A DNA stretch of 39,448 nucleotides from an uncultured bacterium (lineage in GTDB: Bacteria; Cyanobacteriota; Vampirovibrionia; Gastranaerophilales; Gastranaerophilaceae): NCBI GenBank assembly GCA_902774905.1, contig CACYKF010000013.1, positions 1 through 39,448 on the forward strand, read 5' to 3'. Numbering within the stretch: position 1 is the stretch's first letter; the number at the start of each line of letters is the position of its first letter. The notes under the pieces were generated by a model. It saw only the letters and a list, made by a program, of their open reading frames with translations, was not told where the DNA came from and searched no databases. Positions 12,274 to 29,983 of the stretch are shown in pieces. Made by a program: the position numbers and the translations under genes.

Positions 12274-15200
12274 ATGAGAATAAACAGAGTAAATAACTGC
12301 ACCGCATTTACAGGTGTCAGACAGGATAGAAATACAGTAGAACAATTAAAAAAAGATAACCCTTATGATTTGAATCTGCCTAATCAGCGCAGAATTTCAA
12401 ATGCTATTGAAGAATTATCAAAAGTTCCGGGAGAAGATAACATAAACTTTTTGCTTGATGTATCGCAAAATCTTCGCTACGGGACAAACATTGATTTGGG
12501 TAAAAGACCATACAACGACTGGAGAGAAAAGTTAAACAAAGCAGCACAGAAATCTTTAAAATTATCAGATAAATCAGTTCAGGAAAAATTATCTAAAAAA
12601 CTTGAACAGGCTATTAAAACCCCGAGAAGTATTTCACCTGAAGAACGAGAAATTATAGCAAACAGAGAGATTTTGTTCTCAAAAATAAATCCTGAAGAAC
12701 TTGCAAATATTTCTAATTCTAATACTCATAATCTAAGAAAGAACCTTAATTATTTTGTCATATCATCTGAAATCCCGACGGCTCAAAAACTCTATATACT
12801 AAAAAGACTTAATTATATGATGAGTGACGATTACCACATCAATCCTCAACTTCAGGATAAAAAGACAATGGTTTTGGCGGAAATATTAAATGACATTGTA
12901 GTAGATACCCCGGAATCAAAAATACCTAATATTAAGGCCATTAATCAAAAACAACATGGTATGTGTGTTGCAATATCGATTTGTCGTAAGGCTCTTGCTT
13001 ATGAAGATAAAGCCAATTATGTCGATATGATTTTGACAGAACTTGATGATAAACCATACATGATGGTTTATGACAGGGCAAATTTAGGCAAACATCAAAA
13101 AGTTCCAATACCAAAAGCCGATATAGATTACGATTACGCAATAAAAAAAGGTTACAGAATTGTAGATACTTCTGTTATGAACTGGATGAATGCGGCTGAT
13201 ACTGTTGGAGCGTTTAATGATGTTGTTGGAGCATATTCCACATTCGACAAAGCAAATTTCGGAACATTTGCAGACACTCATATTCATAAAGATATTGATG
13301 ATCAAAGCGAAAAATATCAGGATTATTACAGAAGTTGCAAAAAATCTAAAGATGCACTTACGACCTGCAAAAAAACAATTGAAAAACAAAAATACTATGC
13401 AACTATTCAAAATGCATCAGAAAAAGAAAGAATTAATACATCAGCAAAAGATACTCAACTTTTACATTCCATAATTAAACAAATATCACCTGAACTTAAA
13501 CAGGAAGAAGTGAGAAAAATTTCAAATGAATTGCGTTCGCTTACATTAGATTACTCTGATGAAATAAATAAATTAGACTCAAAACTAAAACAATATTCAT
13601 TTATTACTAATGAAGAAAAAGATGCAAAAAAACAAAAAATTGAAGAATTTTTAAATAATATTCTTGATGGAAACACAAACCACAAGATTTTAAAAGAAAA
13701 ATCAGGAGAAATAGCAGATATTATTGAAGAAATCAGGAGTTTAAATAAGAGTCACAGTTTGAATCCTGTCCAAAAATATCTTGAGAATAAAGCATTATTT
13801 GAAGCCGCAGCAGCATACAGGACTCAACAATCATTTGCTTTTGATATACCTGAATATCTGACGAATTCGATGGTTCAATTTAATATCCCAGATAACGAAT
13901 CATATATTATTGAAAATCTGAATACTTTAAGTAAAAAGATTCGCTCAGGCAAAATCAATCCTGAACTTAAAGAGATTTTATCCGAAAGATTTGAAAAAGA
14001 AATAGAAGAAAAATCGCAGGAATTATCCGCGCCAAAAGATGAATTACTTGCAACCGTACTTGACGATTATGCAAATACAGTCAAACTATTGACTACAACT
14101 TTTATGGATGACATTTATCATTCTCTTTTACTTGGAGACAGAAAACAAACACTTGTAACACAACTTGGTGCTATAAGAAATGAAATTTCAGAGACAAAGG
14201 ACAAAAGTGTTATTGAAAAAGTTTCAAGTGATTTAAAAATTAAACCAAGCAAACAAGCAATCATTGATACACTTGATAAATATATTGAAACACTATCTGA
14301 TGAAAATTGTACCGATGAACAATATGTTGAAATTTTGAATAAATCCGGTCATAAATCACATCTTTGGGATTTGAAAGAGGCATTTGACAATACATTGGAT
14401 CTGTTATTTAGAAATCCTAATCCGTCATATATTGCAGGTTTTAATATTATTAACGGTGCACCAATGGATTCTGACATCGAAACGACACAAGATTTATACA
14501 AAGTTCTTGCGACAAGTTTTAATAATATGTCAATGATTATAAAAACACTCCAAGATACACTTCAGGTGACACTTCCTGACGGAAGGATGCTAAATACGGC
14601 AGACCCGAAATTTGCCGCAATGAAAAAACTTGAAACAATTGAAGGAATGGCTACAGAAGAAGAACTTACATCTTTGAGTAACAAGTTTGACGAATTTGTC
14701 AAAAACAGATATTCACAAGACGGAACAAAAGTTAAATTCAAAGATTTGCCAAAATCAATAACGGAATTTACACCAAAAGAAAAAGCCGCACTTGAAAAAT
14801 ACAGAAGAAATATTAATCCTTGGTATGCGGAATCTGTAAGAAATCTGAACGATATTTATATTCAAATGAAAGAACCATTGGAAGAACTTAACAGAGAAAT
14901 CGGGGTTCAGAAAGGTGAATACTGGACAAGAGAAAATGAAAGCGGTTTGTTTGAAAATCAGGCATTAAAGATTTTTGAACACATGACAGACCGTCCGTAT
15001 TATGAAGAAACCAATATACGCTCAGGTTTAGATAAAATTAAACGCTCACCATATTCAGCAACATCTATGACCTCAGTCAAAGATAACGAACCTGCTATGC
15101 ACGCTCAATATGTTGTTGATGTAAAACCGACAGTATTAACATTTGAAGATACGACAAAAGTTAAAGATATAATTTTCCACGATAACAGTTGGGGTGCATC

Positions 15201-18200
15201 AGAACACGAAAATGTATGGGTTGACAAACTCGGAATGTTAAGAACAGATTATTCAAGTTCTTATGGCGGTCAGGAAGGATATATCACAAACGAAAAATTC
15301 CAAAACGGGAAACTCGAAGATAATCTTGTAAATAAAAAAGGCAAATTTGTTCCTGAAAAAATACCGAACAAAAAATACAACAAACTTGTAAATGAAGATA
15401 GAGAAGAATATACCTTCCCAATGATTCGCGCGCTTATGATGCATGGTGTTTCACCGAAAGCAATGTCAACCGTAAAAGCAATTAAGCAAAATCTTTTATT
15501 ACCATCTTCAGAATACATTGATGATTTAAGCGAATTTGCATCAGAAATGAGTCAGGACGAAATTAAATCTGCTATAAAAAGAATTCAAACCGCAGGGGAA
15601 TCTTCAAGAAAAACTTATACTATTTTATTAAAAAGAATTAATGGGGATGAAATTTTTGATAAAGGAATAGATAGCGAAGAAAAATATTATAATCTTTCAC
15701 CAAACGACAAACTCAGACTTATGGCAGAAAAGGTTGCCATTATAAAATCTTATGACCAAATTCCGGATATAAATACATATAATATTGAAGTAAAATCACA
15801 AAAAGAACTTGATAAACTGCATAAAAAACTACGCATAGAAGCAAGAAATAATTTTGATTATATTATGGGTAAAAATCCTGATATTCTCAAATATGCTACA
15901 GAAAGCACAAGAAAAGAAACATACGCTTTACTGAAAGAATTTGCAAAAAATAACAATGTAAATCTCAGTTACAAAGCAATGACAAAAATTGTAAATTCAA
16001 TGAAACGAATCAAAAAGAACAATTATGACGGTAGTATTTCGCAAGGTACAGACCTTATGATTGCAAATTTTGAAAAATATTTAAAATTAAAAACTAACGC
16101 ATCGGACGAAAAAGTTAAAGAAATATCTGCTAAGGTCAAATCTTTAATAGAAAAGAATTTAACAATAACAGAAAATGATGTAAAAACACAATTTACAACA
16201 GGACGAAACGAAAAAATTGCCGGCTGGATAGATAGAGAATTTGCGCCGAGAACAGACAAAGAGTTTGCTCAAATTCTGAACAATTTGCGCCGTATGACAA
16301 ATGAAGATTTTAAGAAAAACTACGATTCCAAAATATCCGATTCAGATATGGGGATTGACTCAATAAACGGATACGATGTCATTAAAGCAATACGCTCCGG
16401 CAATGATTCTATAAAAAATTCGTTTATAAATACCGTATTTTCAGAAGGTTATTACCAAGATATTGAAGAAAGCAAAACAAGAGCATATTATGACCTTAAA
16501 AAACTTTCAAGAAACCTGAGCGGAGGGACATATATAGGCGGCAAGCGTTCATTTGACGATTTATATTCCGATTTTTATTACAACTTCCAGGGATTAACAA
16601 TTAAAAAAGAATTTGACAAATACAAAGATGAAGCCTTCAAAAAATATTTTGCATTCCCTGCATATCCGCTTGTTGAAATTTCAACTGAGGAAGACCTTGA
16701 AAATTCGCTAAATACATTTAACGAGAAATTAAATAATTATATGGACTTTATCTATGCGTACAAAAATCAACAAGCATCATTAGAACTTGTATATGAACTA
16801 AAGCACTACGCAGATTCAAAACTCACACATATAGGAGATATGACTCCGAAGCAGTATACAAAAATCACCAGAGATTTAAGCAGACTAATGGCGCTTAATT
16901 CAAGTGATGAAACACTTCAAGACAAAAAAGAAGAAGCAAGACTATTATTTGCTTCAGGAACAAAAGACATTAAAGCGTACAAAGACTACATAAATTCTTT
17001 ATACGATTTATTTAAAATATACGAAAGAACCGCAGACGGCAAAACAATGAAGGAAGCCGAGCAGGTAACTTTGAAAAATATTGATATCTACAAAAAGACT
17101 TATGTAATGAGCATGTTTGAACCGAAATATCAAGGCAAAGCGCTTGAACTTTTAAACAAATGGATTTCGGCAAAATCTAAAGCCGTATGGGTAAAAGACC
17201 ACTTTAACCCGACAGTAAACGAAGAAAGCAGTGATGAAGCAAAAGCCATAGCAGAAACATATACTAAAAATGTAGAAAATGCAGATGAAATATTTGAAAA
17301 ATTTAAAGATTTATTTATGAAACACAGACTTCTTGCAAGTCCTGACAGGTACATGAATGAATATTTACTGCTTTGTGCTAAAGATGCAAAACATCCTGAC
17401 AGAAAATATGATAATAATAGCGACGAAGGCAAACAAGCAATAAAAGATATGCGTGAAACCTTTAAAACAAACCTCAAATCTCTATTATACAAAGCGGATA
17501 TGATGGAACTTCAATATACATTGATGGATTGTGCTAAAAAAGGTAATCTCAACGCAGTCAGAGATGCATTCAGAAATTCTACCCTTGAATTAACTGATGG
17601 TTCTGTTGTAACAATGGATTCGGAAGAAGGATTGAATTTAATTATTTCGCCTATGCTTCAGGAAGAAAATCTTGATACGGCAGCATTATTCTTAAACCAA
17701 CTCGGATTGTCAGAAAAAGTAGCAAAAATGATTTCTGACAAAACATCACTTGATATTGCGTATAAGAATTTTAACAGAATACAAACTATAATAAAAAGTT
17801 CTGATTCACAAGCAAAATTTGCAAGAGCAGAGGTAAGAAAACTCGGAAATATAGACAATAATCCAAATTATGAACAAATTATACTTGACCTCAAACAAAG
17901 ACTAATGGAAAAAGCCAAAAGAACAAGTTTCAGTACGGGAGCATCAATATTTGAAGCAGCATTAGACGATGCACTCAAAGAAATAAAGGCTCAACCCGAT
18001 CAATCAAAAACATTGCTTTTGGGCACAAATATTGATTTGGCAATTGCAGGATTGAGAGAAGTCGTTAAGGCTAACATAAATTATCTTAATAGTCCTCTTA
18101 TGGTAATACAAAAACGCTATGATCTGATTAAAAAATTACTTCTTCCGGACAATTCCCCGGTTGCCGAAGATGCCGGAAAATACATAGAAGAATTGCAAGA

Positions 18201-18264
18201 ACTTTTAGAATACGAACATAGCGTACAAAAGTCATACCCGAATATCGGAATAACATCCGAATAA
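12274..18264 (+). CDS. Giant protein (1996 residues) with papain-like (C1) cysteine peptidase motifs
   Basis: I do not recognise the whole protein. Residues 224-231 read NQKQHGMC, matching the papain oxyanion Gln and catalytic Cys spacing (Gln six residues before Cys: Q225, C231). Residues 942-944 (MHA) resemble the catalytic His context (H943), and NSWG at 971-974 matches the catalytic Asn motif (N971). So a C1-type active site appears to be present, but Cys and His are 712 residues apart, against 134 in papain and about 300 in bleomycin hydrolase. The intervening region and the approximately 1000-residue C-terminal part are Lys/Glu-rich and helical, without membrane segments. No signal peptide is visible. 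The N-terminus (MRINRVNNCTAFTG) carries a short tag shared with other proteins here. No Shine-Dalgarno is clear. The gene stands alone, divergent from the TSCPD operon. Peptidase activity is inferred, not shown. Confidence 0.85.
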   Translation: MRINRVNNCTAFTGVRQDRNTVEQLKKDNPYDLNLPNQRRISNAIEELSKVPGEDNINFLLDVSQNLRYGTNIDLGKRPYNDWREKLNKAAQKSLKLSDKSVQEKLSKKLEQAIKTPRSISPEEREIIANREILFSKINPEELANISNSNTHNLRKNLNYFVISSEIPTAQKLYILKRLNYMMSDDYHINPQLQDKKTMVLAEILNDIVVDTPESKIPNIKAINQKQHGMCVAISICRKALAYEDKANYVDMILTELDDKPYMMVYDRANLGKHQKVPIPKADIDYDYAIKKGYRIVDTSVMNWMNAADTVGAFNDVVGAYSTFDKANFGTFADTHIHKDIDDQSEKYQDYYRSCKKSKDALTTCKKTIEKQKYYATIQNASEKERINTSAKDTQLLHSIIKQISPELKQEEVRKISNELRSLTLDYSDEINKLDSKLKQYSFITNEEKDAKKQKIEEFLNNILDGNTNHKILKEKSGEIADIIEEIRSLNKSHSLNPVQKYLENKALFEAAAAYRTQQSFAFDIPEYLTNSMVQFNIPDNESYIIENLNTLSKKIRSGKINPELKEILSERFEKEIEEKSQELSAPKDELLATVLDDYANTVKLLTTTFMDDIYHSLLLGDRKQTLVTQLGAIRNEISETKDKSVIEKVSSDLKIKPSKQAIIDTLDKYIETLSDENCTDEQYVEILNKSGHKSHLWDLKEAFDNTLDLLFRNPNPSYIAGFNIINGAPMDSDIETTQDLYKVLATSFNNMSMIIKTLQDTLQVTLPDGRMLNTADPKFAAMKKLETIEGMATEEELTSLSNKFDEFVKNRYSQDGTKVKFKDLPKSITEFTPKEKAALEKYRRNINPWYAESVRNLNDIYIQMKEPLEELNREIGVQKGEYWTRENESGLFENQALKIFEHMTDRPYYEETNIRSGLDKIKRSPYSATSMTSVKDNEPAMHAQYVVDVKPTVLTFEDTTKVKDIIFHDNSWGASEHENVWVDKLGMLRTDYSSSYGGQEGYITNEKFQNGKLEDNLVNKKGKFVPEKIPNKKYNKLVNEDREEYTFPMIRALMMHGVSPKAMSTVKAIKQNLLLPSSEYIDDLSEFASEMSQDEIKSAIKRIQTAGESSRKTYTILLKRINGDEIFDKGIDSEEKYYNLSPNDKLRLMAEKVAIIKSYDQIPDINTYNIEVKSQKELDKLHKKLRIEARNNFDYIMGKNPDILKYATESTRKETYALLKEFAKNNNVNLSYKAMTKIVNSMKRIKKNNYDGSISQGTDLMIANFEKYLKLKTNASDEKVKEISAKVKSLIEKNLTITENDVKTQFTTGRNEKIAGWIDREFAPRTDKEFAQILNNLRRMTNEDFKKNYDSKISDSDMGIDSINGYDVIKAIRSGNDSIKNSFINTVFSEGYYQDIEESKTRAYYDLKKLSRNLSGGTYIGGKRSFDDLYSDFYYNFQGLTIKKEFDKYKDEAFKKYFAFPAYPLVEISTEEDLENSLNTFNEKLNNYMDFIYAYKNQQASLELVYELKHYADSKLTHIGDMTPKQYTKITRDLSRLMALNSSDETLQDKKEEARLLFASGTKDIKAYKDYINSLYDLFKIYERTADGKTMKEAEQVTLKNIDIYKKTYVMSMFEPKYQGKALELLNKWISAKSKAVWVKDHFNPTVNEESSDEAKAIAETYTKNVENADEIFEKFKDLFMKHRLLASPDRYMNEYLLLCAKDAKHPDRKYDNNSDEGKQAIKDMRETFKTNLKSLLYKADMMELQYTLMDCAKKGNLNAVRDAFRNSTLELTDGSVVTMDSEEGLNLIISPMLQEENLDTAALFLNQLGLSEKVAKMISDKTSLDIAYKNFNRIQTIIKSSDSQAKFARAEVRKLGNIDNNPNYEQIILDLKQRLMEKAKRTSFSTGASIFEAALDDALKEIKAQPDQSKTLLLGTNIDLAIAGLREVVKANINYLNSPLMVIQKRYDLIKKLLLPDNSPVAEDAGKYIEELQELLEYEHSVQKSYPNIGITSE

Positions 18265-20935: not shown

Positions 20936-21295
20936 TTAAGCAGTCAAATCTAATTTTTTACCTGTTTTCTCGTTTTTAACAGCCTGCGCTCTCATTTTAA
21001 TACTTTGAGCACTTTGCGCAACCTTATAATCTTGACCTGAAGGATCAGATGGGGCAAGAGCGGCTCTTATCACGATATTAGCGTGGTCTATCGTTTTTTG
21101 AGGATTGTTTTTGTCTAAAACCGGCATAGCAATAGGAACATGTCCTGATACGGGAATCCCGTTTGCATCCCGTTCAATAGATATTGCACCTGCAAATTGT
21201 CCGCCTGCAGATTTGTGCGCCAACTCATGATTATAAATATGATTATAATTTTTAGTTATCAACTCCTGTTTAGTCAAACCATTATACAAAATCAT
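20936..21295 (-). CDS. Small SprA-related putative metalloprotease
   Basis: A 119-residue protein resembling the SprA-related/CJM1_0395 family of putative metalloproteases. HELAH at residues 23-27 is an HExxH zinc motif, followed by the family-typical AGGQFAGAISIERDANG, VSGHVPIAMPVL and AALAPSDPSGQD segments. Family members are usually longer; this is close to the bare core. The ATG at 21295 is chosen because GAGG lies 8 nt upstream; an upstream in-frame GTG at 21304 overlaps that Shine-Dalgarno. It lies between tsf and ftsZ on the same strand. No signal peptide is visible. Substrate unknown. Confidence 0.8.
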   Translation of the reverse strand: MILYNGLTKQELITKNYNHIYNHELAHKSAGGQFAGAISIERDANGIPVSGHVPIAMPVLDKNNPQKTIDHANIVIRAALAPSDPSGQDYKVAQSAQSIKMRAQAVKNEKTGKKLDLTA

Positions 21296-21359
21296 ACACA
21301 ACACCTCTGCTACTTTTGTAACATAAAATTATAATTTTGTCAAGTGTACCAACATAAAA

Positions 21360-24720: not shown

Positions 24721-25200
24721 ATGTTTACTATATTTTTTAAACCGGAGAATTACAAACAAATAGATAAGTACCTTTCGCGTTCTGCACAACCAACTTTAAA
24801 AGAATTAAAATGGTTAAAAAAACAGGGCGTAACAGATGTTGTTAATTTAAGAACAATGGAAGTTCCTGATATAGATTACAACGAAGCAGAAGCAGTAAAA
24901 AAACTTGGGATGAAATATCACAATATTCCATCCGTATCAATGTATCCCCAAAAAGAAAATGTCGGAAAGTTTTTAGATATTGTTGAGGGCGCAAAACAAA
25001 ACGGCGGAAAGGTTCATGTTCATTGCAAACAAGGAGCAGACCGCACAGGAATGTTTTCTTATATTTACGAAAGACTAAATAATATCGGGACAATTAAAGA
25101 GAATTTACAGGAACTTATAGATCACCATTGGCATAAAAATAAATACCCGTATCTGAACGAGTGGGCAGAAACTTTCGTCGAAATGTTTAAGAAAAAATAA
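24721..25200 (+). CDS. Dual-specificity/tyrosine phosphatase-like protein
   Basis: A 159-residue protein of the cysteine-dependent phosphatase superfamily. The P-loop HCKQGADRTG (101-110) has nucleophile C102 and R108, fitting HCxxGxxR[ST]. The N-terminal half has YLSRSAQP and the VVNLRTMEVPD segment typical of small DSP-like phosphatases. The usual general-acid Asp about 30 residues before the Cys is not obvious there (residues 69-78 read IPSVSMYPQK), so the acid may be elsewhere. AGGGG precedes the start. Its stop directly abuts the stop of the convergent plsY. Substrate unknown; phosphoprotein or phosphoinositide-like substrates are equally possible. Confidence 0.88.
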   Translation: MFTIFFKPENYKQIDKYLSRSAQPTLKELKWLKKQGVTDVVNLRTMEVPDIDYNEAEAVKKLGMKYHNIPSVSMYPQKENVGKFLDIVEGAKQNGGKVHVHCKQGADRTGMFSYIYERLNNIGTIKENLQELIDHHWHKNKYPYLNEWAETFVEMFKKK

Positions 25201-29452: not shown

Positions 29453-29983
29453 ATGAAAGTTTCAAACATTCAAAACAACAATCTATATTGTGCTAACAGT
29501 GTCTCTTTTAAAGCCGCAACAAATTTTGACAGAATTTTACCTGCAAACAAAGGCATAATATCAAAAAAATCGGTAAAATTGATTAACGAATTAAATTCTT
29601 GCATAGATAAAGAATGGAAAGATATTAAACAAGGGAAAAAGATAGCGGAAAAACCGATTTTCCAAATTTTAGACGGAAAGAAACATGTTACATTTGAACC
29701 GGTTTATGCCCAAAAATATCCTGCTTTGCTAATAGATATTAATGACGGCAAATACAATGAAAGAATCTTAATGAACAGGGATAACCCTAACAATTTCAGA
29801 TATGAAAAGATGATTGAAACAGACCACGGAAGCGCAACTTTAAAAACTTACAGTTCAATAAACGGCGGAAATAGCGAAATTGACAAATTTGTAAATAATA
29901 TTGTAGAAAATAATCTTGAAAAAATACTTTCAAACAAAATGTGGGACAGAATTTTAAACCGAATTGAAGAAGGTATTGATTAA
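29453..29983 (+). CDS. Lineage-type protein with NSVSFKA N-terminal tag
   Basis: A 176-residue protein of unknown function. The first residues MKVSNIQN fit the shared N-terminal pattern, and NSVSFKA follows at about residues 15-21. The rest is soluble, with beta-rich (KPIFQILDGKKHVTFEPVY) and helical parts and no catalytic motif I can name. AGGAG lies 7 nt before the ATG. The 3' end overlaps convergent hydF by 4 bp. No signal peptide or membrane segment is visible. Confidence 0.75.
   Translation: MKVSNIQNNNLYCANSVSFKAATNFDRILPANKGIISKKSVKLINELNSCIDKEWKDIKQGKKIAEKPIFQILDGKKHVTFEPVYAQKYPALLIDINDGKYNERILMNRDNPNNFRYEKMIETDHGSATLKTYSSINGGNSEIDKFVNNIVENNLEKILSNKMWDRILNRIEEGID

Follow-up and report, generated by a model that had tools for sequence, protein, structure and literature searches.

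A predicted giant papain-clan cysteine peptidase with a large insertion between its catalytic lobes in Gastranaerophilales

Cysteine peptidases of the papain clan (CA) carry their active-site residues in the order Gln-Cys-His-Asn, with the Gln six residues before the Cys. The closest described systems to the gene reported here are the papain family (C1A), bleomycin hydrolase and PepC (C1B, PF03051) and the calpains (C2, PF00648). C1B enzymes are cytosolic and have helical material inserted into the papain fold, and bleomycin hydrolase ends near the cleft. In animal calpains, the Glu six residues after the catalytic Asn presumably has a calcium-binding role. The window analysed here, 39,448 nucleotides from an uncultured member of the Gastranaerophilaceae (assembly of 1.99 Mb in 51 contigs), contains a gene in which a sequence-only reading had noticed a papain-type active site split by several hundred residues. 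The gene and its four main regions were placed in the window as follows.

12274..18264, plus strand: whole gene, predicted giant papain-clan (CA) cysteine peptidase; single open frame from ATG to TAA, 1996 aa.
12721..13278, plus strand: N-terminal lobe, residues 150-335, with Q225 and C231 at a helix start (low entropy; dN/dS 0.03-0.05; alignment).
13279..14898, plus strand: inserted block, residues 336-875, largely helical, differing between relatives in length and sequence (high entropy; dN/dS 0.14-0.19; AF2 helices; Cys-His spacing 467-765).
14899..15363, plus strand: C-terminal lobe, residues 876-1030, with H943, N971-S-W-G, E977, W982 and GGxxGY(I) (low entropy; dN/dS 0.03-0.05; alignment).
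15364..18261, plus strand: C-terminal region, residues 1031-1996, largely missing from relatives of 1370-1390 aa (no family matches).

The gene was intact, with one uninterrupted 1996-aa frame, and stood alone in the window, in agreement with its earlier description as isolated and divergent from a regulator operon. The divergent genes upstream, 133 bp away, encode a TSCPD-domain protein (92 aa), an OmpR-type response regulator and a ResIII-type helicase, and a polysaccharide pyruvyl transferase gene lies downstream in convergent orientation. Within the genus, the position beside the TSCPD gene was kept, often with ftsZ as well; in other genera the neighbours had changed. A short SprA-related open reading frame (PF12118) with the motif HELAHKSAGG was observed at 20936-21304 of the window (minus strand), where it adjoins ftsZ, and it was retained there in several members of the genus. 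A small dual-specificity phosphatase-like protein, with PTP-NADK as its top Pfam match, was encoded at 24721-25200 of the window (plus strand). Inspection of the N-terminus of the giant protein revealed no signal peptide, as the sequence-only reading had held. With a highest 19-residue Kyte-Doolittle mean of 1.2, the protein is not expected to contain a transmembrane helix. Because a Sec signal is absent, the protein would act in the cytoplasm or exit by a route unrecognised here.

The gene has relatives in 27 of the 52 sampled genera of the order (135 of 383 genomes) and, in a search of its own family, in 99 of 288 genomes. Sampling 292 genomes across the phylum gave 35 matches, all within the same order and none outside it. 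The gene was present once in its own genome and was usually single across genomes. Viral contigs, phages and plasmids yielded no relatives, indicating that the gene is neither phage- nor plasmid-borne. The eight close loci came mostly from rumen metagenome assemblies. PsaA/PsaB were detected in 39 of 98 sampled genomes of the phylum and in none from the gene's own family or class, which places it in a non-photosynthetic branch of the Cyanobacteriota. Together with the genome size and the source, this absence of photosynthesis is consistent with Gastranaerophilales (class Vampirovibrionia, 'Melainabacteria'). One relative (locus L038, 1735-7675) was broken into two frames near residue 990, by pseudogene formation or assembly error. 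No description of the family was found in a literature search.

When the papain-type motifs were re-read from the frame, their positions and spacings were exactly as claimed: N224-QKQHGM-C231, M942-H943-A944 and N971-S-W-G974, with a distance of 712 from Cys to His and of 28 from His to Asn. The residues predicted to form or adjoin the active site are listed below.

12946..12948, plus strand: Q225, predicted oxyanion-hole Gln at Cys minus 6 (129/129 relatives).
12964..12966, plus strand: C231, predicted nucleophile and sole invariant Cys (129/129 relatives).
15100..15102, plus strand: H943, predicted catalytic base and sole invariant His (129/129 relatives).
15184..15195, plus strand: N971-S-W-G974, predicted catalytic Asn motif (N, W and G 129/129; S or T at 972).
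15202..15204, plus strand: E977, at Asn plus 6, a calpain-like position (129/129; spacing as in calpain NPWGxxE).

Conservation was scored on 64 aligned sequences at first and later on 129 distinct core sequences. In all 129, residues Q225, C231, H943, D970, N971, W973, G974 and E977 were unchanged; position 972 was always S or T (66 and 63 sequences, respectively), and position 944 was A in 123. Only 26 of the 881 core columns were invariant, and more than 97% varied. C231 was the sole invariant residue among the five Cys of the query core, and H943 among its 16 His. The catalytic site was retained in the most distant members, which belong to other families of the order and share 22-29% identity with the query. 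Conservation of the four catalytic residues in homologues had been set beforehand as a refutation test; the quartet proved real, in the correct order and with the Gln six residues before the Cys, in every one of the 129 relatives down to about 22% identity. Chance resemblance of the motifs was rejected on this conservation. Because the four residues are unchanged in all 129 relatives compared, the product is very probably a working protease.

Alignment entropy was low at about residues 150-325 and 876-1025 and high in between; there, some 540 fast-evolving residues form a block that separates two constrained lobes. Pairwise dN/dS within the genus was 0.08-0.11 for the whole gene, 0.03-0.05 for each lobe and 0.14-0.19 for the block. 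AF2 modelled the block as helical, and several of its segments reached a local pLDDT of 75-87. The idea that a helical insertion fills the gap between Cys and His was thus borne out by a separate, faster-evolving and mostly helical block. About 105 residues after the Cys and about 67 before the His were conserved in length. If the block were removed, Cys and His would thus be about 172 apart, compared with 146-152 in bacterial C1A proteins. Across relatives the spacing ranged from 467 to 765: it was 478-479 in the 1370-1390-aa forms, and two other families had 467 and 490. All catalytic residues were retained where the block is naturally more than 200 residues shorter. The arrangement had been called a new architecture. 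This held for the size of the insertion, which is extreme and, to our knowledge and from a search that was not exhaustive, the largest known to split the lobes of a papain-type enzyme; it did not hold for the kind, as the helical insertion of bleomycin hydrolase is a precedent.

Searches of Pfam, NCBIfam, PHROGs and PADLOC returned nothing meaningful. The use of profiles brought no Pfam or NCBIfam match either, and the Pfam gathering thresholds for PF00112 (C1A), PF03051 and PF00648 were not reached. Comparison with the PDB gave only chance colicin matches when the single protein was used, and coiled-coil, calmodulin and other unrelated matches when profiles A1-A3 were used. Slices of the giant family's alignment were run in hhalign against a profile of 26 bacterial C1A sequences from the phylum. 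Scores were 24.6 for the slice around the Cys and 17.3 for that around His and Asn, and both exceeded every one of 52 decoys, which were slices of other regions or reversed slices (mean 10.7, sd 2.1, maximum 15.9). When all 881 columns of the core were aligned, the two half-sites came out as the top two local alignments, in the correct register and order with genuine C1A peptidases. These matches were short (14 and 30 columns) and weak, with single-comparison P-values of 0.003 and 0.05, and the C1A sequences had partly been picked by the same motifs, so homology is supported but unproven. Against bleomycin hydrolase, seven residues around NSWG aligned and nothing else, at about decoy level; against a small calpain profile the score was 18.3, barely separated from decoys of up to 15.2.

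The AF2 model of residues 1-1110 had a mean pLDDT of 49, with most of the catalytic core below 45, and the C-terminal lobe alone reached 35. Both runs used an alignment of nine near-identical rows, a depth too shallow for a confident model of the core. In a mean-field covariation analysis of the 129 sequences, the 200 strongest couplings included 45 pairs between the C-terminal and N-terminal lobes (48.4 expected) and 20 between the C-terminal lobe and the block (41.9 expected), a weak signal.

The protein probably represents a new family of active clan CA peptidases with an unusual architecture. Judging from its sequence, we consider it likely that the gene encodes an active papain-clan cysteine peptidase whose lobes fold together across the block. 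The two lobes would form a papain-like core, with its catalytic geometry predicted from the motifs. C231, placed where a helix begins, would attack the peptide carbonyl as the nucleophile, Q225 in the oxyanion hole would stabilise the oxyanion, and H943 would serve as the base, with N971 orienting it to complete the triad. The block sits at the crossover between the left and right lobes of papain, so that, together with the C-terminal 960 residues, it may build a large helical superstructure above the cleft for selecting, gating or binding substrates. Such an enzyme would probably serve processing or regulation with high specificity, and not general degradation.

Other readings of the same residues were weighed against this one. 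Clan CA folds serve acyl transfer as well as hydrolysis, and the distance of the giant family from every known peptidase family makes its substrate chemistry unreadable from homology, so a papain-fold transferase, deamidase or transglutaminase-like enzyme with the same Cys-His-Asn machinery was considered. We regard it as very unlikely, because the Gln at Cys minus 6, N-[ST]-W-G and GxxGY together are the signature of C1 and C2 peptidases and are present in genuine C1A proteins. A peptidase that cuts itself and so sheds the block or its C-terminal half once matured would suit a very large multi-region protein and the natural loss of most of the C-terminal half in the 1370-1390-aa relatives. 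This is improbable, however, as the C-terminal half was still fused in nearly all family members and an unsystematic look noticed no conserved motif resembling a cleavage site. The suggestion of an inactive scaffold fared worst. Full-length homology to peptidases was undetectable, as would be expected if the protein were a pseudo-enzyme or helical scaffold whose motif arose by chance or survives as a relic; but the total conservation of the catalytic residues, together with W973 and G974, in a core that otherwise varies almost throughout makes this highly improbable.

A peptidase acting outside the cell was weighed on the evidence of the N-terminus, which carries one further feature.

12274..12333, plus strand: N-terminal element, residues 1-20, reading M[KR]I..(I/V)N...F(T/K)G and then the RxDRN signature of the family (R16 invariant, F12 and D18 nearly so).

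Some ten other proteins of this genome (739 kb sampled), otherwise unrelated and mostly unannotated, carry similar elements. A regular expression for the element matched 16 of 635 proteins, compared with 6.5 +/- 2.3 after shuffling; the expression had been tuned on the target, and several matches look spurious. The form M[KRN][IV]..(I/V)N...F(x)G was seen in this genome at 12274-12333 and 29453-29980 of the window and in loci L112 (5284), L114 (14901), L118 (3829), L116 (15286), L154 (4438), L111 (10521) and L152 (6553), and also on a small downstream gene of L127, L296 and L297. In one branch of the family (L129, L132, L280-L292, L294, L295), a gene for a 90-95-aa signal-peptide protein lay 39-85 bp downstream on the same strand and was kept in most loci; it usually adjoined a two-partner secretion pair, TpsB (ShlB/POTRA) and TpsA. 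The shared element is possibly a sorting signal of the clade. A Sec-independent secreted effector that uses M[KR]I..IN...FxG for sorting would be consistent with these shared elements, with the host-associated clade and patchy distribution, and with the relaxed scaffold. We nevertheless consider an effector unlikely, given the tuned expression with its spurious-looking matches, the lack of a consistently adjacent secretion locus (two-partner secretion genes adjoin in one branch only) and the stable housekeeping neighbourhood of the gene within its genus. The N-terminal element and the adjacent secretion genes are insufficient for an effector call. It is likewise doubtful, and somewhat less probable than an effector, that a new clan CA family with a 300-600-residue helical domain clamping or gating substrates would also carry a Sec-independent N-terminal signal common to uncharacterised Gastranaerophilales proteins.

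An active papain-clan peptidase would add a peptidase family to host-associated, non-photosynthetic relatives of cyanobacteria in which gene functions are mostly unknown. The family is widespread in the order, usually single-copy and fast-evolving outside the catalytic lobes. Pfam and NCBIfam do not see it, so it carries no annotation at present. Two matters become testable: the assembly of a papain core whose halves lie more than 500 residues apart, and the role of such a protease in gut bacteria.

The sequence-only reading had found agreement with family C1, which stood for the order of the residues and their local spacing; the surroundings of the Asn fit calpain equally well, with E977 invariant at Asn plus 6, where bacterial C1A proteins have W. 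The likeness to C1A (bacterial members L203-L205 and L214) comprises Q-x5-C with a small residue after the Cys, HA[M/V], N-S-W-G and GxxGY, and the signature of the giant family (Q-6-C, HA, N-[ST]-W-G and G-x-x-G-[YF]) is that of the bacterial C1A proteins compared. By contrast, the Cys-His distance was 146-152 in the bacterial C1A set and 467-765 in the giant family, so that the giant protein lies outside the C1A range of about 130-155. The His-Asn distance was 18 in C1A and 20-33 in the giant family, WG at Asn plus 6 and plus 7 in C1A was replaced by the invariant Glu, and C1A proteins were about 240-480 aa long, compared with about 1370-2170 aa.

NSWG and GxxGY are common to the giant protein and C1B, whereas the giant protein runs about 1000 residues beyond its core. 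No PF03051 protein was found in its own genome or in the sampled genomes of the same family. With calpains, the giant family shares a GHA-type His motif and N-x-W-G-x-x-E; NPWGxxE is present in calpain-9, -3 and -8, with the Glu at the same spacing as E977. W at Asn plus 11 and D at Asn plus 13 presumably match animal calpains as well, which we take as a lead. The Cys motif differs, being NQKQHGMCVA in the query and NQxxHGMCAA in the family consensus, compared with QGxxGDCW in calpains, and no EF-hand match was found in the giant protein. Other large calpain-like proteins with a Cys motif of the QGxxGDCW type were observed in genomes of the same family (L177-L189), mostly below or near the Pfam cut-off of PF00648; at least one, in L177, had an EF-hand-like N-terminus by eye. 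On these sequence comparisons, the giant protein most likely belongs to clan CA, yet lies outside C1A, C1B and C2 as these families are defined by their profiles.
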